Shown one piece after another: positions 37,588-48,264 of a DNA stretch of 64,000 nucleotides (positions are counted from its first letter, which is position 1; every line of letters starts with the position of its first letter). Location: the NCBI RefSeq assembly GCF_016599715.1, contig NZ_CP067019.1:1240001-1304000 (forward strand). The letters are read 5' to 3'. This DNA comes from Acinetobacter sp. CS-2 (lineage in GTDB: Bacteria > Pseudomonadota > Gammaproteobacteria > Pseudomonadales > Moraxellaceae). The position numbers and the translations under genes are program-made. The notes beneath the pieces are model-generated. The model did no database searches and was not told where the DNA came from. It was given only the letters and a program-made list of their open reading frames with translations.

Positions 37588-37922
37588 TGTGTTTCAACTG
37601 CCATCCAATGGGTAACTTCCACAGGTTCCTCATATTCATGCCCTGTGTCTGACTCAATATACCCTTGCAAAAATTCACCACCCTTAAACACACAATGCTT
37701 AATAGCATCAAAAGCAATTACATCTTGACCATCTATTGGTAGTTTATTCTCAACAGAAACCCATCCCGGCACCGCTTGGGCTTTGGCTGCTTTCCATCCA
37801 ACGTATGCGTAATCCCTGCGAGTTATCGCACCCTCATCGCCTTGGTTTGCTAAGTTATCAATGCCAAGGTATTCTTTTTTAAACCAAGCCTTAAAACACT
37901 TCTCTTTCTTTTCAATATCCAT
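37569..37922 (-). CDS. DUF551 domain-containing prophage protein
   Basis: A 117-residue protein. The C-terminal half carries the DUF551 pattern (GWVSVENKLPIDGQDVIAFD, then VTHWMAV). The N-terminal part includes AYVGWKAAKAQA, also common in this group. Widespread in phages; function unknown. The ATG at 37922 has AGGGTGA upstream. Confidence 0.75.
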   Translation of the reverse strand: MDIEKKEKCFKAWFKKEYLGIDNLANQGDEGAITRRDYAYVGWKAAKAQAVPGWVSVENKLPIDGQDVIAFDAIKHCVFKGGEFLQGYIESDTGHEYEEPVEVTHWMAVETQEPAND

Positions 37923-37926
37923 CACT

Positions 37927-38292
37927 TCACCCTAATACTTGAAAATTGTGGTGTTTTAAATTGATAGCTGTCATTTTTGTACAATGCTGACAGCGTGTTC
38001 TTGATCGCCTTTTAAGCTCTGCTTCATCCTCTTTTAGTCGTTCACGCTGCTCGTTTATGTCCTTTTGTATCCGAGCAAAATAACCAACTGAATCTTTAAT
38101 CCATAAAACTGGATTTACCTTTGCTCCGCATTTTTTGCACAATAACTCAAGAGACTTGGTATCGATTTCAACAATCATGTGCTGGCATTTTTTCGAGTTG
38201 ATTCGAGGAAATTCCAGAACATTGTTCTCAGTATCAATAACTGTATGTTCCTGGAAAGGGTATTTGTAGTTTGGCTTTACCGGCTCATCCAT
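37927..38292 (-). CDS. Prophage protein with two CxxC pairs and a coiled coil
   Basis: A 121-residue protein with CKKC and CQHC pairs about 45 residues apart and a charged helical stretch (IQKDINEQRERLKEDEAELK) between them. This reads as a zinc-clasped coiled coil. Unknown function. GAGG lies upstream, and the ATG shares a base with the upstream stop. Confidence 0.6.
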   Translation of the reverse strand: MDEPVKPNYKYPFQEHTVIDTENNVLEFPRINSKKCQHMIVEIDTKSLELLCKKCGAKVNPVLWIKDSVGYFARIQKDINEQRERLKEDEAELKRRSRTRCQHCTKMTAINLKHHNFQVLG

Positions 38293-38714
38293 CACGCCAC
38301 CTCAACTTTCAAAACGTACTTTTTACCGCCACTGGTGAACTCAACCGCTTCGCCTTTTCCAAGCAGGTAATGCCCAATGGCTTCCAAATTTTTTGAGCTC
38401 AAACCTGTTTTGGCTCTTGCTCTGCGGCGGTCACACTCAAGACAGATATTTGATTTCACAGATCGCTCTGAAGTACCGCACGATCTGCATGGCGCAACCG
38501 GCTTATAGCTTTTTAAACCTTGCTTTTCAGCACGTGTACGCAAAATGTGATTCTGGTGACTATTAGGTCTTTCAGCACTTTGCAAAACAGTATCTGCATT
38601 GCAGTAATTAAACTCGGCTTTATTGGTATTTACGGCCGGCTTAATCTCACCACCATTTGCCACAAATTTTGCGACTGCTTCTGAGTAGTCAGGTTTGATT
38701 TGAGTTCCAATCAT
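38292..38714 (-). CDS. Zinc-finger-like prophage protein
   Basis: A 140-residue protein with CRSCG and CLECDRRRARAK, forming a four-Cys finger with a basic patch that may bind nucleic acid. A C-terminal beta segment (GEAVEFTSGGKKYVLKVEVA) follows. Start and stop abut the neighbours. Not recognised by name. Confidence 0.6.
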   Translation of the reverse strand: MIGTQIKPDYSEAVAKFVANGGEIKPAVNTNKAEFNYCNADTVLQSAERPNSHQNHILRTRAEKQGLKSYKPVAPCRSCGTSERSVKSNICLECDRRRARAKTGLSSKNLEAIGHYLLGKGEAVEFTSGGKKYVLKVEVA

Positions 38715-39028
38715 TACGCCACCTTCGCCAAATTATTCATCATCACAGCCTTGCGAAATTTGCCAGCCATGGCCCATTTCAAGTCATCAACAAAGCTTTT
38801 TCCATTGTTGAAATACTGCTTTAAAAACACTTCATAACGCCCGGACAAATAATCATCCAGATCATAAAATTCCTTTACCTCATGGCGCTCGAAATGGATC
38901 ACGCCACGCTTTGTTGACCCTTTGCACTCTTTAGTGATAACCATCAGGTTCTTTTTGAGTGTAATTTTGTGACCGCCTCGATCTAGCCATTCAATGAAAG
39001 CTGGCGAAATACTGTTGGGTAGTCTCAT
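38714..39028 (-). CDS. Prophage early hypothetical protein, 104 residues
   Basis: MRLPNSISPAFIEWLDRGGH opens a soluble basic protein. I start at 39028 (GGGAGTG upstream) because the upstream part of the open frame is a shadow of the Gp157-like gene. Function unknown. Confidence 0.6.
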   Translation of the reverse strand: MRLPNSISPAFIEWLDRGGHKITLKKNLMVITKECKGSTKRGVIHFERHEVKEFYDLDDYLSGRYEVFLKQYFNNGKSFVDDLKWAMAGKFRKAVMMNNLAKVA

Positions 39029-39044
39029 GCTGCTTTCACTCCCT

Positions 39045-39557
39045 TTACTTGAATGCCAGACGTTGTGTGCGGACAAATTCAACACCCTCACACTCAAGAG
39101 ATTCACGGCTTTGAAGTAAGGCGCGTTTATCCACCTCAACCACAGTCTTTTCCTTTTTAAATTCAGAAGGAATCTTACCCTCATCTTTAACAACGACTGA
39201 CCAAGGATTTTGGCGAACCTTTACAGACAAAACCGGATCTTTGATTTCCTCCACACCAAAGGTCAGCATTTGCTGCAATAGCAGATTGCTTAGATAGCCA
39301 GCGGTCTGATCTAACTTTTTAGCCTTGTCTGCAATCCGCTTGGACTCGGCAGCAATCATTTTGCTTTCAAGCTCTAACTGGTGGACATACTTAGCAACAT
39401 TCTTTGCTTTTTCTTTCCAGTTTTCCTCAGTGCCTACCATATCCATAAGCAATTCCTGAACTTGATTGCTGTTTGGGTCCGCACCTTCAGCAAGCAGCTC
39501 CTGAATATTTTCAATTTTTACAGCTAACTCAGTGCCAAATTCATATAAAGTTGTCAT
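39045..39557 (-). CDS. Siphovirus Gp157-family protein
   Basis: A 170-residue protein matching the Gp157 family: MTTLYEFGTELAVKIENIQE, a central long helix (KNVAKYVHQLELESKMIAAE) and a C-terminal beta part (VKVRQNPWSVVV). In Streptococcus phage Sfi21 a homologue was linked to phage resistance. In many phages it sits beside recombination genes, as here. GGGGAGG precedes the ATG. Confidence 0.8.
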   Translation of the reverse strand: MTTLYEFGTELAVKIENIQELLAEGADPNSNQVQELLMDMVGTEENWKEKAKNVAKYVHQLELESKMIAAESKRIADKAKKLDQTAGYLSNLLLQQMLTFGVEEIKDPVLSVKVRQNPWSVVVKDEGKIPSEFKKEKTVVEVDKRALLQSRESLECEGVEFVRTQRLAFK

Positions 39558-39618
39558 AATCATCCTCCCCAGGATTGAGGGCTGACTAAGCCCTCAGTTC
39601 TTTTTATTTATATATGAT

Positions 39619-40290
39619 TCAAAATGGTAGATCGTCATCTAAGTCAGCAGGTTGAGCCGCCTTTGGCTGATTGCCATATCCTGTATTTTGTGGCTGTGCA
39701 TATCCACTAGGTTGAGCGCCATTCGACTGACGAGTTGCGTCACCCATCGCAAGCAAACGCTCAAGGGCTTTAGGTAATAGCTCCGGTGTTGTTTTGCGCT
39801 CCAATACCTCTTTGGCCATCAACTCACTTTCAGCATTAAATGAAGCGAAAAAGTTCATTTGGTGGCGTTGTTGTCCTTGGCCATTAAGATAATTTTCACG
39901 CTGCAATAATAATCCGATACGTTTGCCTGCCATTTCTGGTGCAACAACACAAGTTTTCTTAACTTTTTGACTAATTTCATAGTCCCATTTTTCCAACTGC
40001 TGATCAGTAGGAGTGAGTGATCGAACTCCGCAGCATGCTAATAAGGCGTTGACCTTGTGAGTGCCAGATAATGGGTTGCCGTCCTTGCTAACAGTCCAAA
40101 TTGTAAAAGTGCTATATTCTTTTGAGTCGGTTTCAAAGTTCACCTCAAAGCCTTGTGCGCCATTTTTTGAAGTGATGAACTCCATCGACTTAATAACCCC
40201 GACATATTTGCCAGTCTGTTCGATACGACCGCCAGCGTCCGCTTGTTTAGCTGATTCAGTATTTAGTGTGAATTGTTGATAAGTAGTCAT
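39619..40290 (-). CDS. DUF669-like/SSB-tailed single-strand DNA-binding candidate
   Basis: A 223-residue protein. The N-terminal ~150 residues are OB-like beta-rich sequence (GGRIEQTGKYVGVIKSMEFI). A Gln/Pro/Gly-rich linker then leads to an acidic tip, DLDDDLPF, the classic SSB C-terminal peptide that recruits repair proteins. It resembles DUF669-type phage SSBs. Placed between the Gp157-like and Sak4-like genes it likely works in strand annealing; that is inference. Confidence 0.75.
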   Translation of the reverse strand: MTTYQQFTLNTESAKQADAGGRIEQTGKYVGVIKSMEFITSKNGAQGFEVNFETDSKEYSTFTIWTVSKDGNPLSGTHKVNALLACCGVRSLTPTDQQLEKWDYEISQKVKKTCVVAPEMAGKRIGLLLQRENYLNGQGQQRHQMNFFASFNAESELMAKEVLERKTTPELLPKALERLLAMGDATRQSNGAQPSGYAQPQNTGYGNQPKAAQPADLDDDLPF

Positions 40291-40300
40291 GATTTATTCC

Positions 40301-40963
40301 TTATGCTTCAGTTGCTTGGTTGGTTTCAGTTGTCAGTCCGTAGTATTCACAGATGGCCTTATCAACTGCGTTTAGATCATTCTCGACATGCTCGTTTTCG
40401 AACAAGCCGATAGGGGATTTCACTGTGTTATGACCATTGTTTTTGGTCATGAAAACGTGCTGCTCATTAATGATTGCTGTCTGTAGGCAGATTGTAACCA
40501 TGCCTTCCAGGGTGATTTTTTCATCCAGCATCTTGCCAATGGTTTTAATCTTTGTTTTCCCTGATTCACTTTCCTCTGTATGGCTCAGGATGTAGACGCG
40601 CTTGTCATCTGCAAGCTGGGCAGCAGTTGTAAATATTTCCCATGTGCTGCGACCGATCTCGGTAAATTTTGCAAAGCCTGTTTCCTGGCTTCTGCGCATG
40701 TATTCGTTCGCCATGACGTACTGATAGTCATCAATCACAATGATTGGGCGGGTTGATTTGTTCATGATTGCCATGATTTGCTGCGGATTGTCTGTAACCA
40801 CAATCGAACCACCTTCTTTAGTAAGCGGCTTCCAGTCAGCAGATCTGAACGGCAGTGGTTTTTTAACCACCTGGATTAATAGCACTTCACTTGGGTTTAG
40901 ATTGCGAAGGCTTGTTGATTTACCAGTACCAGACTGGCCTAAAATTAATGTTGCTATACTCAT
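40301..40963 (-). CDS. Sak4-like RecA-fold ATPase
   Basis: A 220-residue AAA-type ATPase with Walker A GQSGTGKST at residues 9-17 and Walker B PIIVIDDYQYV near 75. It lacks RecA's long C-terminal region and fits the Sak4/AAA_24 phage single-strand annealing ATPases, which act with a phage SSB. The SSB-tailed gene is the next gene downstream, 10 bases on. Confidence 0.78.
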   Translation of the reverse strand: MSIATLILGQSGTGKSTSLRNLNPSEVLLIQVVKKPLPFRSADWKPLTKEGGSIVVTDNPQQIMAIMNKSTRPIIVIDDYQYVMANEYMRRSQETGFAKFTEIGRSTWEIFTTAAQLADDKRVYILSHTEESESGKTKIKTIGKMLDEKITLEGMVTICLQTAIINEQHVFMTKNNGHNTVKSPIGLFENEHVENDLNAVDKAICEYYGLTTETNQATEA

Positions 40964-41002
40964 TATTCAGTCCTCAGTATTCAGTATTGATCGTTGGCAG
41001 CC

Positions 41003-41380
41003 TTAAGCCACCATCCCCATTTCAAATTTTTCAACCGCATCCTCTTCAAGCCATTCATTCAACTCATAAACCTGAGATTCAGTTAGAATGAAATGCAAGC
41101 CTGCTGGTGTTTCTTCAAAGTCAGATCGAGTGACCAAAGCCAAAGTTTTGTTGTCTACTTCAAGCTTGGTGTAATCCACATCACGGCCAGATTCAGGGTG
41201 AAATTGCTGTTCCATATACATTGAATCCGTCAATTCAACCGCTTTGATTTCACAATCAATGGATTGGTTGCCGACCATGAAAGAGAACTGCACGTTGTCT
41301 GCATCAACCTCGATACGTGATGAGATTGAAAGCAGCGGAAAACACGGAGCAAACAATTCAGGTTTAGTTTGAGCGTTCAT
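41003..41380 (-). CDS. Prophage early hypothetical protein, 125 residues
   Basis: A mostly beta acidic protein starting MNAQTKPELFAPCFPLLSIS at 41380, with GGAGG upstream. The longer open frame is a shadow of the gene before it. Not recognised. Confidence 0.6.
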   Translation of the reverse strand: MNAQTKPELFAPCFPLLSISSRIEVDADNVQFSFMVGNQSIDCEIKAVELTDSMYMEQQFHPESGRDVDYTKLEVDNKTLALVTRSDFEETPAGLHFILTESQVYELNEWLEEDAVEKFEMGMVA

Positions 41381-41642
41381 GGTTTGCCTCCATCTGAAAC
41401 TTAACCGCCTGCACTGCCTGACGATCCACATCATCTGAACAACTACGAACTGCAAAAGGTGTTGCCAAAATTGGCGAACTAAAAACCACTACTGCAATCA
41501 CGTCACGCATAAAAGCTTTGAGCTTATTGCGTTTATTCGCCCGAGCAATCTGTTCACTAGAAGGCGGCTGCTGGTAAAGAATCCCTGTTGATGGGATATG
41601 GCCAAACTCTGGGGTTTGACTGTGGGAAGGTGTTTGGTTCAT
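41364..41642 (-). CDS. First gene of the leftward early operon, membrane-anchored
   Basis: A 92-residue protein. A Pro/Ser/Gln-rich N-terminus is followed by a basic patch (ARANKRNKLKAFMRD) and one transmembrane stretch (VIAVVVFSSPILATPFAV), then a hydrophilic tail. It is the first gene after the leftward promoter, the position where lambda places N, but nothing suggests an antiterminator. Its ribosome site is weak. Confidence 0.55.
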   Translation of the reverse strand: MNQTPSHSQTPEFGHIPSTGILYQQPPSSEQIARANKRNKLKAFMRDVIAVVVFSSPILATPFAVRSCSDDVDRQAVQAVKFQMEANHERSN

Positions 41643-41662
41643 ACTTATCTCACTCTTTGAGT

Positions 41663-41697
41663 AAAAGTCCCGTCGGTCGAATGTCAGGGACTTTTTT
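41663..41697. terminator. Hairpin in the leftward leader
   Basis: AAAAGTCCC pairs with GGGACTTTT around a 15-base loop. It lies between the leftward promoter and the first gene. On the plus strand six T follow; on the minus strand only four. It may act as an attenuator of the early operon. Confidence 0.5.
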
Positions 41698-41714
41698 GTT
41701 ATCTGGTGAAATTT

Positions 41715-41742
41715 AGTTTACCAAAGGAAACTTCAAAGTCAA
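41715..41742 (-). promoter_or_regulatory. Leftward early promoter (PL-like)
   Basis: On the minus strand TTGACT and TAAACT are separated by 16 bases. The first operator copy (41716-41731) overlaps the -10 box, so repressor bound there would block it. Confidence 0.65.
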
Positions 41743-41785
41743 CAATAAAGTTTATTAAAAGAAACTTATTTTTATATTTGGAAAC
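41716..41785. promoter_or_regulatory. Left operator cluster (three 16-bp sites)
   Basis: Copies are GTTTACCAAAGGAAAC (41716-41731), GTTTATTAAAAGAAAC (41750-41765) and TTTTATATTTGGAAAC (41770-41785, first base off). Each is a partial palindrome with GTTT and AAAC ends, the same pattern as at the repressor-cro junction. Confidence 0.75.
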
Positions 41786-41802
41786 TTGTATGTTTTAATA
41801 GA

Positions 41803-41829
41803 CAAAAGAAAACCCACCGCTGGGGTGGG
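41803..41829 (-). terminator. Terminator of the repressor-linked operon
   Basis: On the minus strand CCCACC, loop, GGTGGG, then TTTTCTTTTG follows the protease gene stop. It separates the lysogenic unit from the leftward promoter. Confidence 0.75.
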
Positions 41830-41862
41830 TTAAAAGTATTTACTAGATATCAATAACAATAA

Positions 41863-42846
41863 TTATTCATTTGCAGCTTGTGGAAGCTCTGACTCTTGAT
41901 CACTTCTACTTGAATCATACTCTGCTTCGATTTCGCTGCTTCCTGAATCAATTTGCTCACCTGGGTTTTCTCCTCCGCATTCTGGATTATCATTTGCTTG
42001 TAATCCTGAGGTAGATGGTAAGTCGGCATTTTGTTGTTCATTTTCAGTGTTCTCTAAAAAGAGGTTTGCATTCATGACTAGATTATGGTCATTTCCATTT
42101 TCAAAGGCAATGACCAAGTCTTGTATTTTGGTTAATATTTTTATCTCTTCATGTGTGTTTGGTTTTCGAACATTTTTAAACAGTTCTTTTAATTCTTTTC
42201 TATCAATAACAAAACCATGTGATGAATAAGATAATAACAACTTACCTAAAGCATTAGATTTCAATATCTTGTATTTTTCATTTAGCCTCTTACCGTACTC
42301 ATATGCAATAAAGTTTGCACGTTGTATTTCACCCATTCGAATAGGATCGATTTGTGAGTAAATTGGAGAAAGGAGGTTAGATGTTAAATTGGTTGCAACT
42401 TCCGCAGCTAATTTTGTAGAAACCCTACCGCCCATTCTGACGTCAATTAAAGTCTCTCTGAATATTTTGACCGCTTCAGTTTTTAGAGCTTCAAATGCTT
42501 GAGGTAAATCAAGACCAGAAGTTTTTTCACCTAATTCAGAAGATTTATTTAATTGTATATCTAAAGGGCCTAGCTCACCTTTGTCGTCTACTATTAATTC
42601 ATTTGCACCAATACAAATTAATGTACCTGCAGATTTACAATAGGAAGGAATTAGCACACTAAAACCATCTTCATAATAGTGCTGTAAAGCTCTACCAATA
42701 CGATAGCCTGCATCAGGATCTCCACCAGGTGTAACTAAAATCAAACATGCTTTTTTCTTATTAGATGACTTACCGATTTCTGTAATGCGATCATACCCAG
42801 ATCTTGAAATATCAGCCATATATAAGATGTAATCAATATCACCCAC
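41863..42846 (-). CDS. Clp-fold serine protease (SDH/SppA-like), in the rexA/B position
   Basis: A 327-residue protein. Residues about 30-105 have the Clp/crotonase-fold serine protease layout: LILVTPGGDPDAGYRIGRAL (oxyanion Gly-Gly), nucleophile Ser72 in SYCKSAGTLICIGANELIVD, and GELGPLDIQ. This matches the SDH-protease group related to SppA. A helical domain follows. The last ~70 residues are acidic, Ser/Asn/Gln-rich and probably disordered. There is no signal peptide, so it is cytosolic. The start is GTG at 42846 with GGAGA upstream. Gaps and strand suggest co-transcription with the repressor. A role in superinfection exclusion or host control is inference. Confidence 0.78.
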   Translation of the reverse strand: MGDIDYILYMADISRSGYDRITEIGKSSNKKKACLILVTPGGDPDAGYRIGRALQHYYEDGFSVLIPSYCKSAGTLICIGANELIVDDKGELGPLDIQLNKSSELGEKTSGLDLPQAFEALKTEAVKIFRETLIDVRMGGRVSTKLAAEVATNLTSNLLSPIYSQIDPIRMGEIQRANFIAYEYGKRLNEKYKILKSNALGKLLLSYSSHGFVIDRKELKELFKNVRKPNTHEEIKILTKIQDLVIAFENGNDHNLVMNANLFLENTENEQQNADLPSTSGLQANDNPECGGENPGEQIDSGSSEIEAEYDSSRSDQESELPQAANE

Positions 42847-42897
42847 TAATTATTCTCCACCCGATCTGTTCTAAAGGCTGCGTCGGATTCGCAGTTT

Positions 42898-43341
42898 TTA
42901 AATAGATTCAATATCATCAAAATACTTATTAACAGAATGAACCCACTCAGGTATAGATTCAAAATTTTCAAGTTTTGGAGTTTCACCAAACATAGCAATT
43001 ATGTTTTGTGACAACGGGTATTTGATATTTCTTTTTTTAGCTAAAGCTGCCACATATTCATCAAATGATTCAAAGTCAGCAATTCTTGGATGATACTTAT
43101 TTTTTATCAAGCGCTTATATGTGAAAACATAGACAAATAGTGAAATAATTACCGCAAGAAAAGATTCACCCGAACCATTTGATCCAATAAATGTTAAAAG
43201 CGACATAAATATAAAAACAGCAATATACTGCCAACGTGCTTTTTTTATATCTTTTAAAGTTATATTTTTACTTAATGCATAGTGAATTAAAGGTATGCAT
43301 GAAATAATAAAAATATTAGTAATAAAACGAATAGAATCCAT
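42898..43341 (-). CDS. Membrane protein downstream of the repressor, in the rexA/B position
   Basis: A 147-residue protein with three to four membrane helices in residues 1-75 (FITNIFIISCIPLIHYALS, YIAVFIFMSLLTFIG, FLAVIISLFVYVFTY) and a soluble C-terminal ~70 residues (FESFDEYVAALAKKRNIKYP). GAGGG precedes the ATG. It lies 25 bases after the repressor and 51 before the protease on the same strand. Family not recognised. A partner role with the protease is inferred from position. Confidence 0.7.
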   Translation of the reverse strand: MDSIRFITNIFIISCIPLIHYALSKNITLKDIKKARWQYIAVFIFMSLLTFIGSNGSGESFLAVIISLFVYVFTYKRLIKNKYHPRIADFESFDEYVAALAKKRNIKYPLSQNIIAMFGETPKLENFESIPEWVHSVNKYFDDIESI

Positions 43342-43366
43342 AAACCCTCTTATTTTTAATATATTC

Positions 43367-44110
43367 CTATCCAGCTCGCCAAAATTGACGACCCATAACT
43401 TTAAAATTTAGACCGTTTTGCTCCGATACTTCACGATCTCTGTATTTTGCATTTAAGCTATGCAGGGTGAGTTTCCCGCCTTCCTCTTTGAATATCTGCT
43501 TAATCATTCCTTCACCCTCAAAATAAACAGCATAAATTTCACCATCTACAATTTCAGTTTGAGAGATATCAATACCCACTAGATCGCCATCATGAATAAA
43601 GTCAGTCATGCTGTCGCCCTTGGCTTTAATGATCCTCATACAACTTGGATCAACATGCTTCCTTTGAAAGAATGATGGTGTAAATGGAAACTTCCCATTA
43701 ATAACATCAAAATGAAATTCTATAGATTCACCAACACCACACGAAAAATTAGCTTCCACGACATCAATCCAAATAAACCCATTTTCTGTTTCGTAATCAA
43801 TAACAGTTGGCTTATGCACTTCATCAACATCAAATGAAGCATCACTTTTGCCAGTCAAATTATGCTTATTCATAAACTCTTGCATATTGAAATTATTGAA
43901 GAGCTTTTCTTCTTCACCTGTAAGCAGCCAGTTCTGAGATGTTTTTAATACTGCTGCTAATGCCGGAAGGAATTCTGCCTTGGGTGTATTTGTTCCGGCT
44001 ACCCATTTAGATACAGCTCCTTTTGTGGCTCCGGTTGCCTCAATTATTGCTGTTTGTCGAAGACCAAGCTCTTTCATTCTTTGAATTATACGGTCGCTAA
44101 TAGTGGTCAT
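43367..44110 (-). CDS. CI/LexA-type phage repressor
   Basis: A 247-residue lysogeny repressor. The N-terminal HTH (LRQTAIIEATGATKGAVSKW) binds operators. The C-terminal S24 domain has a cleavage site Cys124-Gly125 (FSCGVGES), nucleophile Ser167 (KGDSMTDFIHDGDLVGID) and Lys204. It should self-cleave with RecA on DNA damage and induce the phage. GAGGG precedes the ATG. An operator at 44130 overlaps its own promoter region, so autoregulation is likely. Confidence 0.93.
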   Translation of the reverse strand: MTTISDRIIQRMKELGLRQTAIIEATGATKGAVSKWVAGTNTPKAEFLPALAAVLKTSQNWLLTGEEEKLFNNFNMQEFMNKHNLTGKSDASFDVDEVHKPTVIDYETENGFIWIDVVEANFSCGVGESIEFHFDVINGKFPFTPSFFQRKHVDPSCMRIIKAKGDSMTDFIHDGDLVGIDISQTEIVDGEIYAVYFEGEGMIKQIFKEEGGKLTLHSLNAKYRDREVSEQNGLNFKVMGRQFWRAG

Positions 44111-44129
44111 ACAAAATCCCTCATTTCCT

Positions 44130-44211
44130 GTTTCCTATAGTAAACAAGCACCTTGATATATGAATAAACTTATGGTTTACTAATGGAAACTATTAGTTTA
44201 TAAAGGTAAAC
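44130..44211. promoter_or_regulatory. Right operator cluster (three 16-bp sites)
   Basis: GTTTCCTATAGTAAAC (44130-44145), GTTTACTAATGGAAAC (44175-44190) and GTTTATAAAGGTAAAC (44196-44211). All are near-palindromes with GTTT and AAAC ends. The middle one overlaps the rightward -10 box. The last ends one base before the cro start codon. The first is placed to control the repressor gene. Confidence 0.82.
44153..44181 (+). promoter_or_regulatory. Rightward early promoter (PR-like)
   Basis: TTGATA and TTTACT are 17 bases apart, upstream of the Cro-like gene. The second right operator covers the -10 box. Confidence 0.55.
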
Positions 44212-44212
44212 C

Positions 44213-44401
44213 ATGACTGTTGATGAGCTAAAACTTCATTACGGAGTTAAAACCGATTCTGAACTCGCTCAGAAGGTCGGATACACCAAGGGCGCTGTTA
44301 GTAAATGGCGAAGCAAGGGCATATCCCTAGAAACCCAAGCTTTATTGCAACTAAAAACAAAAGGGAAGGTTAAGGCCAATCTACAAGCTTTAACTGCATA
44401 G
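44213..44401 (+). CDS. Cro-like (YdaS-type) HTH protein
   Basis: A 62-residue protein, almost all HTH: VKTDSELAQKVGYTKGAVSK. The recognition helix TKGAVSKW equals that of the divergent repressor, consistent with both reading the same operators. AAAGG lies 6 bases before the ATG. It is first in the rightward early unit. Confidence 0.88.
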   Translation: MTVDELKLHYGVKTDSELAQKVGYTKGAVSKWRSKGISLETQALLQLKTKGKVKANLQALTA

Positions 44402-44409
44402 GTGAATTT

Positions 44410-44685
44410 ATGAGTCTTGAAAAGAAATCTACACATGTCCGTTTATCTCCGGAAATCCATGAGCGAGCTAAAACACTCGCTGAAATTAAGGGTAAAGACC
44501 TTGCTCAATATCTGGCGTTTCTTCTTGAAAAAGAAATCGTCGGTGAGTGGCATGTACTTAATTTACAAGCAAAATCCTTTGAGCGCTTGGGATTAAAAGC
44601 TTTAGTGCGGGATATCTCTACTGAGGTGAGCTTCGGAGAGGGACTGGAAGGGATTAACGAGAATTTAGGCAAAGAAAAAGCCTGA
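44410..44685 (+). CDS. Ribbon-helix-helix-like protein in the cII position
   Basis: A 91-residue protein whose first ~45 residues (THVRLSPEIHERAKTLAEIK) look like a ribbon-helix-helix DNA-binding fold, followed by a helical tail. It follows cro by 8 bases. It occupies lambda's cII slot but is not a CII homologue. A stem (GCCTGAT with ATCAGGC) lies across its stop and may attenuate the unit. Confidence 0.6.
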   Translation: MSLEKKSTHVRLSPEIHERAKTLAEIKGKDLAQYLAFLLEKEIVGEWHVLNLQAKSFERLGLKALVRDISTEVSFGEGLEGINENLGKEKA

Positions 44686-44729
44686 TGGGAAAGATCAGGC
44701 TTCATGTTCTTTAAACGAGGTAAATCATT

Positions 44730-44888
44730 TTGAACTATCAAATTTTAGCAGAAATTGAACTAAATCGAAAGATAAGTTTGCTTCAAAAAGCCGCTGAAAA
44801 TTACGCACTAAATCGAACACTTGAAAACTCAATGGCACTCGCTAGAGCTAAGGCTGCGTTGTGTGCTTTTGTGATGGAGGGTGTTTGA
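44730..44888 (+). CDS. Small helical prophage protein, 52 residues
   Basis: A frame from TTG at 44730 with GAGG 9 bases upstream, reading MNYQILAEIELNRKISLLQK and continuing as amphipathic helix. Its stop overlaps the start of the O-like gene (TGATG), which suggests coupling. Unknown function. Confidence 0.5.
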   Translation: MNYQILAEIELNRKISLLQKAAENYALNRTLENSMALARAKAALCAFVMEGV

Positions 44889-45724
44889 TGAGCGCATTAA
44901 AAATTCAACCTTTGGATAATGTTGACATTCATCCAAGCACAGCAAAAAGGAATGAGCATAAAGCTATGTCCAAAAAGGAAGATGGTTATACACCATTGCC
45001 TAATTTTGTTTGTGATGAAGGGTATTTGGCTGCTTTAAGCGGTGAAGCCATCAAGTGCCTTGTTTTGCTAAATAGGCATATCAAAGGATTCCGTGAAGAT
45101 AATAAATCGATTGGCGAATCTTTAATTTTGAAATTGGCTGGCTTTAAGGATAAGCGAACTGTTCGCAAAGCTATGTCAGATTTAGCAAAATTCAACCTTG
45201 TAAAAATCACAAAAACTTTGGGTAAAGCGACAACATATGAGGTCACTTTTGAGGATAGATTATCTATTGAACTAGTAACATCAAATGATACTGGTACATC
45301 AAAAGTAGTTACATCAAATGTACCTAGACTAGTAACATCAAATGATACTGGAACTAGTAACATCAAATGTCACTCTGTAAAAGAAAAGAAAATAAACTTA
45401 AAAGAAAGGGATCAAGAAAACCCAATCGATGAAGTTATGAATATCTGGAAACCAGACTTGCATCAGCTCAATTCGTGGATGCAAAGATCAGGCTTACCGA
45501 AAATCAATCAAACTCAGGTTGATGAATTACTTCTTGAAGTCAACCCTCACTACGAAAACAAAATCCGCACTGGTGCAGTAACCAGCACTCAGATGTATTC
45601 AAACTTCGTGAAGTGGATTAAGCGTGACAACAAACTTGTTGAAAAACTCATGCAGCAGGCTGCATCTGCAAATGCTCAACCAGTAATCCCTCAAGACTAT
45701 CAATCTGACATGGGGGATTGGTAA
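44888..45724 (+). CDS. O-like phage replication initiator
   Basis: A 278-residue protein. Residues about 35-125 form a winged-helix like phage RepO N-terminal domains (LPNFVCDEGYLAALSGEAIK, FKDKRTVRKAMSDLAKFNLV). A repetitive linker (LVTSNDTGTS twice) follows. The C-terminal ~80 residues (WKPDLHQLNSWMQRSGLPKI) resemble the DnaT-type DNA-binding domain. It should bind the iterons within its own gene and load the helicase encoded next. The ATG at 44888 overlaps the upstream stop. Confidence 0.85.
   Translation: MSALKIQPLDNVDIHPSTAKRNEHKAMSKKEDGYTPLPNFVCDEGYLAALSGEAIKCLVLLNRHIKGFREDNKSIGESLILKLAGFKDKRTVRKAMSDLAKFNLVKITKTLGKATTYEVTFEDRLSIELVTSNDTGTSKVVTSNVPRLVTSNDTGTSNIKCHSVKEKKINLKERDQENPIDEVMNIWKPDLHQLNSWMQRSGLPKINQTQVDELLLEVNPHYENKIRTGAVTSTQMYSNFVKWIKRDNKLVEKLMQQAASANAQPVIPQDYQSDMGDW
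45271..45375 (+). repeat. Iteron array inside the O-like gene, candidate phage origin
   Basis: Four copies share the core GTAACATCAAATG (one has GTTACATCAAATG), with core starts at 45275, 45308, 45332 and 45357. Copies one and three are identical over 24 bases. A degenerate copy (GTACATCAAAAG) lies at 45294. A purine-rich, AT-rich stretch follows at about 45376-45415. This is the lambda layout: iterons then an AT-rich segment within O. Confidence 0.75.
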
Positions 45725-47058
45725 TGTCGAATATTCACAATTTATCAATCGAGCAATGTGTTCTTGTTGCTTTGATGACTGTCCAAAATTCACTTGAAAC
45801 CGTGATGAATGATCTGGATGCAGAATGTTTTTACGCTGAACGACACAAGGCAATTTTCAACGCCATCACCGACCTGTCGAACGAAAACAAACCGTATGAC
45901 GTAGTGTTTGTTGAACAAAAGCTGATTGAAACAAAACATCATGAATTGGTCGGTGGCACTGAATACTTGATGCGCATGTTCACCGAATCACCAAGCTCGT
46001 TCTACAGCCTGGAATCATATGTTGCTGAACTCAACAAGTTTAAATCACACCGTGAAGTTGAACAGATCGGCCAAAGCATCCAGGAGAAGGCGAAGGACCT
46101 AACCGTACCTGATATTCACAATGCTGCTGAAAACATCCTGAGTGGGTCAAACACAAGCGACAAGGCTGAGAAATCCAGTTTTACGTTTGAGGAAGCTTTG
46201 AAGCGTGCCGGTGAACAGTTAATCCAGAAAGCTGAAGCCAAAGCAAGTAAGCAATACACCGGCGTTAAGTTCAACCTGCCTCATTTGGACAACGTAGTGG
46301 GCACCATTCAGCGCGGACACTTCTGCGTGATCGGCGGTAGACCCGGATCAGGAAAATCGACTCTGGCGCAAATGGTGGCGATTCAGACCGCTATGCAATT
46401 CCGTGAAGCGGTATTGGTGGTATCGGCTGAGATGGATGTAGAGACATTCACGAACCGTTGTATCTCCGCATTGACCCATATTCCGTATGACAACATTCAC
46501 AATGCTGAATTGTACGACGGCATGATGAGAGACTTCGCTAATGCCCAGGAGCGTTTTAACAAGCTACCGATCCATATCGAAGATAAGCAAAAACCAACCA
46601 TTGCAGAGATTCACTCTTATGCACGCAAGGCCAAGCGCAACTACAAAAAATTGGGCTGCATCATTATTGATTACTTGCAGCTTGTGCGTGACCCAACCAA
46701 GAAAGACCGCTATCAGGAAGTCAGCTCAATCAGTCGTGACCTCAAGGCCATGGCCAAAGAGTTTGATTGCCCAGTAATCGCACTGGCACAGCTCAACCGT
46801 GAATCAGAAAAAGGAAAACGTCCAAAGCCGAGCGATTTAAAAGAGTCAGGCCAGATCGAGCAGGATGCAGATCAGATTTTGTTGGTTCATCCAATTATGA
46901 ACAGTGATGACGAAATGCCAAGCGGTGTGACTGAAATCATTATCGGCAAGAACCGTCATGGCAAGAAGGGTGTGGTCCGGGTTGTGGACCGTTTGGATAT
47001 CTGCCGTTTTTCTTCGATTCGTAGTGATGAGGAACAAGGCTTAGGGGGTGGGGTGTGA
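45724..47058 (+). CDS. DnaB-type replicative helicase
   Basis: A 444-residue helicase. The N-terminal DnaB domain opens MSNIHNLSIEQCVLVALMTV. The RecA-like domain has Walker A GGRPGSGKST near residue 205, Walker B CIIIDYLQLV, and the arginine-finger region GKNRHGKKGVV. It should be loaded by the O-like protein and removes the need for host DnaB recruitment. The start overlaps the O stop (TAATG). Confidence 0.93.
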   Translation: MSNIHNLSIEQCVLVALMTVQNSLETVMNDLDAECFYAERHKAIFNAITDLSNENKPYDVVFVEQKLIETKHHELVGGTEYLMRMFTESPSSFYSLESYVAELNKFKSHREVEQIGQSIQEKAKDLTVPDIHNAAENILSGSNTSDKAEKSSFTFEEALKRAGEQLIQKAEAKASKQYTGVKFNLPHLDNVVGTIQRGHFCVIGGRPGSGKSTLAQMVAIQTAMQFREAVLVVSAEMDVETFTNRCISALTHIPYDNIHNAELYDGMMRDFANAQERFNKLPIHIEDKQKPTIAEIHSYARKAKRNYKKLGCIIIDYLQLVRDPTKKDRYQEVSSISRDLKAMAKEFDCPVIALAQLNRESEKGKRPKPSDLKESGQIEQDADQILLVHPIMNSDDEMPSGVTEIIIGKNRHGKKGVVRVVDRLDICRFSSIRSDEEQGLGGGV

Positions 47059-47717
47059 AGAATAGATTTTATTTACGTTCACCGCATGGCAATACCGGAT
47101 CAAACATGGTTTTTCATGCGATTGATGGCAAGGGCTATACCTCAAATTTAGATTTAGCTCATGTTTACACATTGGAAGAAGCACAAAAGGAGTGGGAATT
47201 AGCTCGTGATGGTGAATACCCAATTTCCGCAGATCATATTGATTCACTGAGCATCTGGAAGATAGATCACCAGTATTTACCATCAAAATCAGACTTAAGC
47301 CCATCTGATAAATATGTGCTTTTTATTAAAGGCATCTGGGATGGAAACGATGTTTACTGGAGCGATTTGAATGGTAATAAATCAACCAATTTTTTACATG
47401 CTCAAATAATTGGACGCACAGCTGCTGAGTGCATTAACCACAATGATTATGTAGTGGTGCCTTTTGAATTGGCAGATAAGAAAAAACGTCGGACATTTAA
47501 TTTTGCTTTGCTTAATCATAGAAAAATGATGATTGCAGCAGGCTTAAGAACTCCAGAACGCATAAAGAAATCATGTCGTAGAGTCATAAACCCAATGACC
47601 CGATTTAACTGCCCAACATGCGGAAAAATTAACTGGCAACACAATCCATATGATTTTGATGGATGTAAGCATTGTGATGAAGGGATGCATATTTCTTTTC
47701 AGTGGGGTGCCGCATGA
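47055..47717 (+). CDS. Prophage hypothetical protein with C-terminal zinc ribbon
   Basis: A 220-residue protein from GTG at 47055. The N-terminal part is alpha/beta (DLAHVYTLEEAQKEWELARD). A basic stretch leads to a zinc ribbon (CPTCGKINW and CKHCDEG). It overlaps dnaB by 4 bases. Not recognised. Confidence 0.6.
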   Translation: MKNRFYLRSPHGNTGSNMVFHAIDGKGYTSNLDLAHVYTLEEAQKEWELARDGEYPISADHIDSLSIWKIDHQYLPSKSDLSPSDKYVLFIKGIWDGNDVYWSDLNGNKSTNFLHAQIIGRTAAECINHNDYVVVPFELADKKKRRTFNFALLNHRKMMIAAGLRTPERIKKSCRRVINPMTRFNCPTCGKINWQHNPYDFDGCKHCDEGMHISFQWGAA

Positions 47718-47830
47718 AACACCCATTAGACGATAAAACAATCCTACTCATCTGCCTTATTGCTTTGATTTGCTTGTGTGCATTGGCGAGTGGATCTGAA
47801 AGTAAAAACTTTGTGCTGGGGTGGGTATGA
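47714..47830 (+). CDS. 38-residue membrane microprotein
   Basis: MKHPLDDKTILLICLIALIC opens a single hydrophobic helix followed by a short polar tail. It starts 4 bases inside the upstream gene and its stop overlaps the next start (ATGA), so it sits in a coupled chain. Unknown. Confidence 0.5.
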   Translation: MKHPLDDKTILLICLIALICLCALASGSESKNFVLGWV

Positions 47831-48264
47831 ACGAAATCATTCAACAACGAATTGAGTTTGTGCAAGCGGGCAAAGACATCACTTATGCACAGTTAATCGC
47901 TAAGCGTAATTTGCGTGAAGAACTTGAAACCGAAATGGAGAAGTATTTAGCGCGTGGTGGGAGGGTTGAAACACTCAAGGGTACTGAGTTTGTACCACGC
48001 CCACCGCGCAAACAAACCAAAATCAAAGGGCATGCGTCAAAGTCCCAGGTGGTGAAAATCAGAAATTGGGTGAATGCAGTAAGCACCACCCCAACCAGGC
48101 GCGAACAACTTTCAAGAACTACAGGAATTCATATTAATCGCGTTCGATCACTGCTTGCACCACCAGCAACACATGGTGCACGGATGACACAAAGTGAGTT
48201 TTCTTTGTTCATGGAGGCGATTCCATTCATCGAAAGACAAGAAGCGCAAAAGGATGCGGCATGA
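47827..48264 (+). CDS. Basic DNA-binding-like prophage protein
   Basis: A 145-residue protein with a helical N-terminus, a basic linker (RPPRKQTKIKGHASKSQ) and a C-terminal HTH-like part (RREQLSRTTGIHINRVRSLL). It may bind nucleic acid. ATGA overlaps at both ends. Family not recognised. Confidence 0.6.
   Translation: MNEIIQQRIEFVQAGKDITYAQLIAKRNLREELETEMEKYLARGGRVETLKGTEFVPRPPRKQTKIKGHASKSQVVKIRNWVNAVSTTPTRREQLSRTTGIHINRVRSLLAPPATHGARMTQSEFSLFMEAIPFIERQEAQKDAA

Follow-up and report, generated by a model that had tools for sequence, protein, structure and literature searches.

What is encoded in the slot behind the repressor of an Acinetobacter prophage, and could it protect the lysogen? In phage lambda, rexA and rexB sit immediately downstream of the repressor gene and in the same orientation. 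The window analyzed here, a stretch of 64,000 nucleotides from Acinetobacter sp. CS-2 (NZ_CP067019.1, positions 1,240,001 to 1,304,000), carries a membrane protein gene and a serine protease gene in the corresponding place, and an earlier note on this DNA had proposed that the two form an exclusion or defense system in which infection triggers proteolysis at or near the membrane. Here, this proposal is followed up gene by gene.

Gene order behind the repressor

The order, strand and spacing of the genes agree with that description: according to the ORF coordinates (Table 1), 25 bases separate the repressor gene from the membrane gene and 51 bases the membrane gene from the protease gene. Its count of two slot genes, in contrast, overlooked a third one of 63 aa that overlaps the protease gene. 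A terminator had also been placed after the protease. A hairpin with a T-rich tail is indeed found there (41831-41811 on the minus strand), but it is the only one detected in the terminator scan, while shuffled sequence gave a mean of 1.6, so that the hairpin alone is not significant.

Table 1. Features in and around the slot behind the repressor (positions in the window).
Feature	Position	Strand	Basis
CI-like S24/HTH repressor, upstream of the slot	43367-44110	-	Pfam Peptidase_S24 (E 1.8e-21), HTH_3 (E 2.5e-5)
Membrane protein, 147 aa, three hydrophobic segments and soluble tail	42898-43341	-	ORF list, hydropathy
SDH-type serine protease, ClpP-fold, 327 aa, GTG start, core approximately residues 1-270	41863-42846	-	Pfam PF01972, PHROGs, AlphaFold2, Foldseek
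Overlapping small gene, 63 aa, +1 frame, conserved companion of the protease	41850-42041	-	ORF list, homology to L006, family tests
Overlap of 179 nt, encoding both the disordered protease tail and the small protein	41863-42041	-	ORF coordinates, AlphaFold2
Terminator-like hairpin with T-rich tail, 3' of protease and small gene	41811-41831	-	Terminator scan
Conserved 92-aa gene, far edge of the variable slot	41364-41642	-	Relatives found in seven viral contigs (L205-L211), downstream of different cargo

The locus is part of a block of 10,330 bp (window positions 37909-48238) that is 100% identical to approximately 1075824-1086153 of contig G000:C1, i.e. to the second prophage of the same genome. 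This block spans the repressor, the membrane gene, the protease and replication genes, and its flanks differ. The identity probably reflects recent recombination, although it may be an assembly effect. As assembled, one cell harbors two prophages that bear the same repressor.

The protease

With 40.9 bits over residues 27-101, the protease exceeds the cut-off of the Pfam family SDH_protease (PF01972; 31.3 bits), and it stays below that of the NCBIfam equivalog Clp_like_SDH (NF047768; 48 bits, cut-off 250). It also matches phrog_21683 (E 9e-94), to which PHROGs assigns no function, and a PADLOC scan of the protease returned 0 families. Ser72 is embedded in a C-K-S-A-G-T motif and Gly41-Gly42 are present. 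Among 94 aligned proteases, that of the window included, G41, G42, C70, K71, S72 and G74 are identical in every sequence, H210, D96, Y207 and E218 are likewise invariant, and D215 is found in 93. The assignment as an SDH/SppA-like serine protease with Ser72 and a GG motif, which the earlier note had made from the sequence alone, is confirmed.

In the AlphaFold2 model, the mean pLDDT per ten-residue block lies between 82 and 98 up to residue 270, with the exception of residues 101-110 (66). The model contains a helical C-terminal part, and Ser72 begins a helix (residues 72-79), the position expected of a nucleophile, while residues 271-327 average 51-65 and are predicted to be disordered. Foldseek returned 1510-N as the best match (E 4.7e-6), followed by SppA and ClpP, with a probability of 1.00 and hence a ClpP/crotonase-type fold, although the TM-scores among the 50 matches listed are modest (0.24-0.38 by query length) and the rmsd is large. 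In a profile search, the nearest solved relative was again 1510-N of Pyrococcus (E 2.5e-4), with the SAGT motifs aligned. The AlphaFold2 and Foldseek results, together with the identity of S72, H210, D96 and E218 in 94/94 sequences, support a competent fold.

As to the catalytic mechanism, 1510-N employs a Ser97-Lys138 dyad (PMC3795559). In contrast, the family of the window protease has no invariant Lys at a like distance: instead of a Lys about 41 residues after the Ser, as in 1510-N/STOPP, position 110 is Ser in 94/94 sequences. Lys101 was considered as the catalytic base and rejected because it is Lys in 87/94 and absent from 7/94. Judged by conservation, our guess is a Ser-His-acid active site with S72, H210, D96, E218 and D215 as candidate residues.

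A small gene overlapping the protease gene

The overlooked gene lies on the same strand, shifted to the +1 frame, and shares 179 nt with the 3' end of the protease gene. L006, the viral record with the best match to the protease (73% identity), has a matching ORF of 65 aa at the same place, and the two small proteins share 40% identity over 63 residues (E 9e-16); a third matching small ORF occurs in L040. The same overlapping layout is present in the Klebsiella phage record MK422450 and in four E. coli prophage loci. In the five gene tables examined for the phage and the E. coli prophages (L001, L036-L039), the companion gene is not annotated.

The family was surveyed with an alignment of 12 proteases, including that of the window, as the seed, and with the best 80 of 109 loci in genome contigs and the best 80 of 120 in viral contigs. 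After removal of loci below 220 bits and of the window's own duplicates, 171 loci gave 114 representatives at 85% identity, of which 113 were used for the frame test; one with less than 200 nt of downstream sequence was dropped. In the +1 frame, an ORF of 50 aa or more runs across the protease stop codon in 103 of these 113 sampled non-redundant loci and is absent in 10, compared to a presence in 15/113 for the +2 frame. Among 1320 other ORFs of the same loci, such spanning ORFs accompany 37% (+1) and 39% (+2). Synonymous-codon shuffles (200 rounds) retained a +1 ORF in a mean of 71/113 and a maximum of 85/113 loci; this control is weak because the composition of the tail by itself holds the +1 frame open.

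The two reading frames also leave their mark on the substitution pattern. This was assessed with 29 independent pairs, which replaced the 41 partly redundant pairs of a preliminary test; pairs with an overlap of less than 25 codons or with a start missing in either member were excluded. Outside the overlap, the protease follows the usual pattern for codon positions 1, 2 and 3, with 0.148, 0.076 and 0.477 changes per codon, respectively; inside the overlap, the values are 0.306, 0.220 and 0.279 (29 pairs pooled). Third-position changes, which fall on the second position of the small frame, decrease in 25/29 pairs and increase in 4, and first-position changes increase in 29/29.

Moreover, 25/102 small genes have an SD 5-mer in front of their first suitable ATG, as opposed to 69/983 background ATGs, i.e. 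out-of-frame ATGs within protease bodies (p 3e-8). This strict test was preferred over a looser one that took the best of several starts and gave poor separation (94/106 vs 72/106). A leave-cluster-out profile, for which proteases at least 55% identical to the target were removed, small ORFs of more than 95 aa were left out and the underlying alignment was built with all members, ranked the small ORF first in 61/104 loci (median of 158 ORFs per locus; E <0.01 in 32) and lower in 43/104. It replaced a motif that had been written after viewing the sequences and that matched 21/104 small proteins (shuffle mean 2.1, maximum 8). With this profile, the window's own small ORF ranks 20th of 786, and no clear SD precedes it, so that the argument for it comes from the close relatives L006 and L040.

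Taken together, both genes exist, and the small genes are mutually homologous and accompany the protease in many lineages; these comparisons make it almost certain that the overlapping small-gene family is real. A quite different explanation for a companion that is nearly always found in the same +1 frame would be a C-terminal extension of the protease, reached by programmed +1 frameshifting and involving no separate gene. This appears highly improbable, given that SD-ATG starts occur among the small frames, for example AAGGAG six bases 5' of the ATG in L063, L064, L065 and L066, and that the overlap in 8/102 loci comprises merely 8-35 nt, which resembles an ordinary operon junction. It is also at odds with L060, where a +2-frame ORF, which may not belong to the family, begins 4 nt before the end of the protease stop codon.

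Ten small proteins were scanned and gave no convincing match in Pfam or PHROGs; the best hits (Pfam E 0.0026, under the cut-off of that family; PHROGs E 0.084) were considered as evidence of a known family and judged to be chance. The small protein is basic and has a predicted amphipathic helix (hydrophobic moment 1.36 vs 0.98 in shuffles). Fold and family of the protease are known, and its companion gave no match in the libraries searched; in the open-licence PMC literature, no description of this protease family in prophages or of its companion was recognized. With the companion profile, 0/22 more distant SDH loci (L005, L012-L030, L034, L035) were positive, the best nearby ORF among 1067 reaching E 6.9, which points to a companion that is specific to the subfamily of the window protease. 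Some of these generic SDH loci (L005, positions 2285-2488; L013; L023) have an ORF of about 50-70 aa directly 3' of the protease, for which the profile is negative. Possibly, these are a second version of the same arrangement.

Geometry and composition of the overlap

When the start of the small gene is defined as the earliest ATG giving at most 75 aa where available, it lies 160 +/- 24 nt after a conserved core motif of the protease, and the protease stop codon lies 296 +/- 52 nt after this motif. The start of the small gene thus keeps an almost constant distance to the protease core, with the stop codon varying more, and tail length in the protease tracks overlap length (rho 0.85). It looks as if the small gene stayed in place and the protease tail extended into it to a variable degree. 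The AlphaFold2 model of the window protease agrees with this picture, as its confidence falls where the overlap begins: the overlap starts at residue 269 and the predicted disorder covers residues 271-327.

The long acidic tail that the earlier note had described is present, with 20 acidic and 3 basic residues among the 92 that follow residue 235, but from residue 269 onward it largely corresponds to the overlap with the small gene. Across the family, the charge of the tail is negative in 98/114 proteases and that of the small protein positive in 92/104. These opposite charges were set aside as evidence for binding because GAA/GAG runs, read one base later, become AAG/AGA-type codons. Both the acidic tail and the basic small protein can therefore be a product of the genetic code alone.

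The membrane protein

The membrane protein had been described as having three to four helices and a soluble tail. Its hydropathy profile supports three hydrophobic segments, at approximately residues 4-23, 37-56 and 58-78, but no fourth. The soluble tail harbors two similar stretches, FESFDEYVAAL and FESIPEWVHSV. No Pfam family is matched above its cut-off, and the PADLOC matches are weak and partial (best E 6e-4).

In the DNA searched, relatives of this protein occur solely in the genome of the window, which has two identical copies, and in L007/L009. The remaining 113 loci of the non-redundant protease set yielded none; in 12 of these, the upstream sequence is too short for a verdict. The protease, or a distant homologue, is encoded in 3 of 175 genomes of the genus and the membrane protein in 2, and only the genome of the window has both. 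In L006, the repressor is followed by the protease with no membrane gene between them. In L007, the repressor is followed by the membrane gene, and the available sequence of L007 and L009 has no protease match.

Hence, it is very improbable that membrane protein and protease constitute an exclusion pair that acts together at the membrane upon infection, as the earlier note had suggested. The two genes are adjacent and co-oriented with a gap of 51 bases, and they are 100% identical in both prophages of the genome; yet they co-occur in no other genome or contig searched, an outcome that the earlier note had named as grounds for dropping the idea, and each is found without the other in the same slot. 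Since the pairing is unsupported, there is no longer a basis for placing the proteolysis at or near the membrane. The membrane gene rather looks like a separate and optional occupant of the slot.

Cargo of the slot

The gene at the far edge of the slot has relatives in seven viral contigs (L205-L211), which carry different cargo upstream of it. L208 contains an AAA_21 ATPase and a PD-Lambda-5 methylase (PADLOC E 9e-124 for the methylase), L211 a homologue of the Lamassu subunit LmuB (E 1e-87), and L205 an OLD/AAA_21-type ATPase together with a C5 methylase. A weaker case are the GHKL ATPases of L206 and L209 (PADLOC E 2e-4 and 2e-6), proteins of about 650 aa without a clear defense name. L207 harbors an HTH pair, and L210 a GGDEF protein, which does not count as evidence for defense, as well as an ORF judged by eye to be similar to the methylase of L208. 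A repressor was recognized by eye in L206, L207, L209 and partly in L208, and the available sequence of L205, L210 and L211 reaches no recognizable repressor. In this set of contigs, the slot is a hotspot for defense-like cargo.

The slot of related phage contigs thus carries genes that match known models of defense systems, which supports defense, as inferred in the earlier note, as a likely role. The comparison with the position of rexAB likewise holds, as the cargo of the window lies behind the repressor on the same strand and a similar placement recurs in other prophages. In unrelated prophages of E. coli and Proteus, the protease also comes directly after a repressor: a LexA-like one in the lambdoid prophages of E. 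coli, where the annotation of L036 places N next, and a repressor recognized by eye in each of two Proteus records.

Distribution of the protease family

Relatives of the protease occur in several phyla, including 48/5426 E. coli genomes and a contig of Acinetobacter ursingii (L042). Some copies are located at prophage ends. In L031 (3959-4924), the protease directly follows a Zot-domain gene on pMsip02, a 9.8-kb plasmid of Methylovorus that, by its annotation, looks like the genome of a filamentous (inovirus-like) phage. A distant relative is encoded on an E. coli phage-like plasmid (L034, 3905-4900) between the genes for a holin and antiterminator Q, on the opposite strand. Another distant SDH-type protease follows the genes for multiubiquitin, E2, ThiF and DUF6527 in a Methylocystis plasmid operon (L035, 1365-4642); this bacterial ubiquitin-like operon may use the SDH-type protease fold.

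The nearest upstream ORF encodes an S24 repressor in 19/90 loci, a count that took 90 of 105 listed ORFs and in which the repressor of L006 was substituted for the automatic choice. Around the copies in genome contigs (117 neighboring ORFs at 66 loci), no defense-island pattern was seen; the neighbors are scattered and often have housekeeping functions, with IrrE and HTH domains recurring in 4 and 4 of the 117 ORFs. On a quick-method tree, the labels "prophage or viral" and "other" have to switch at least 15 times. It was not used as evidence because the label mostly reflects the collection of origin and the copies in genome contigs may themselves be prophage-borne.

Repressors, IrrE and HTH proteins as neighbors would also fit a regulator of lysogeny, in which protease and small partner would target the switch of their own prophage and assist the adjoining repressor, for example by cutting a repressor, an antirepressor or a CII-like protein. 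A precedent of this kind is Hex of phage 434, whose gene partly overlaps the repressor gene and which prevents autocleavage of the repressor (PMC3564112). Yet, most loci have no repressor as the nearest neighbor, the repressors that do adjoin the protease are of differing types, and defense genes take the place of the cassette in related contigs, all of which makes such a function unlikely.

Proposed role of the cassette

The reading that we prefer, with a probability of about 0.5, is a two-gene cassette of a protease and a small regulator that is carried as cargo of the variable slot behind the prophage repressor and probably acts against phages. The first gene encodes an SDH-type serine protease of the ClpP fold that has no evident membrane segment, and the second a small protein that is basic and has a predicted amphipathic helix. 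This small protein may be a cognate regulator or adaptor that binds the protease and either keeps it inactive or brings substrates to it. In the lysogen, the complex of both proteins would be made from the repressor transcript. Infection by a second phage could then free or direct the protease, which in turn would cut a phage or host protein and halt the infection.

Taken by itself, the defense role stands at roughly even odds on these sequence comparisons. It is supported by the cargo of the slot in related contigs, by the S24 repressor as neighbor in 19/90 loci and by the occurrence in 48/5426 E. coli genomes, and it is weakened by the fact that the protease has no PADLOC match and that the neighbors of the genome-contig copies are scattered. 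The two genes are adjacent and co-directional, as would be required for a toxin-antitoxin-like stability module as well. Here, the protease would act as a toxin that the small protein inhibits, and the main effect would be to stabilize the prophage or plasmid, in line with the presence of two co-directional overlapping genes on phages, on the inovirus-like plasmid (L031) and on chromosomes. This alternative, rather unlikely on the whole, overlaps with the anti-phage cassette because such modules can serve defense. More tentatively, and with odds somewhat short of even, the cassette could represent a widespread, unnamed immune module of prophages and chromosomes in which the protease is obligately tied to an overprinted regulator that senses infection and switches the protease.

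The existence of the companion has practical consequences. A protease tested alone would be half a system that misses its companion, and "removing the tail" of the protease would damage a second gene. If the defense role is true, a protease-effector system is added to a slot known from lambda rexAB, along with a clear example of conserved overlap in which one frame can be disrupted by changes that are silent in the other gene. If the immune-module reading is true, a single stretch of DNA encodes the tail of an enzyme and its controller, the latter being overlooked by current annotation.

Comparison with known systems

Among solved structures, NfeD1b/1510-N (STOPP) is closest to the window protease by profile and fold, and in both cases a partner gene adjoins the protease gene. 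1510-N is a ClpP-type stomatin-specific protease with its partner encoded alongside (PMC3795559). While the partner of 1510-N is stomatin, the small proteins of the window protease family have no stomatin match, with no SPFH domain detected among the 10 small proteins scanned in Pfam. A further difference is that the window protease has no evident membrane segment by hydropathy. With the SDH Clp-fold proteinases (PF01972; NF047768), it shares a ClpP/crotonase-type core, the SAGT nucleophile motif and a score above the Pfam cut-off. It differs from them by a score far under the NF047768 cut-off, by its helical C-terminal part, by the companion gene and by its frequent occurrence in prophages.

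With respect to location, the PD-Lambda-5, Lamassu LmuB, OLD-like and GHKL cargo occupies the same slot beside the conserved edge gene and consists of unrelated proteins. The immunity region of lambda includes the rex genes (PMC11077077), and a RexAB-type pair of P. putida comprises a DNA-binding protein and a membrane effector (PMC12894663). Neither slot protein has a Rex-named match in Pfam, NCBIfam, PADLOC or PHROGs, libraries that may hold no Rex models. The likeness to lambda rexA-rexB lies in the position, next to the repressor and co-oriented with it, whereas the slot of the window is filled by a protease and an overlapping small protein.
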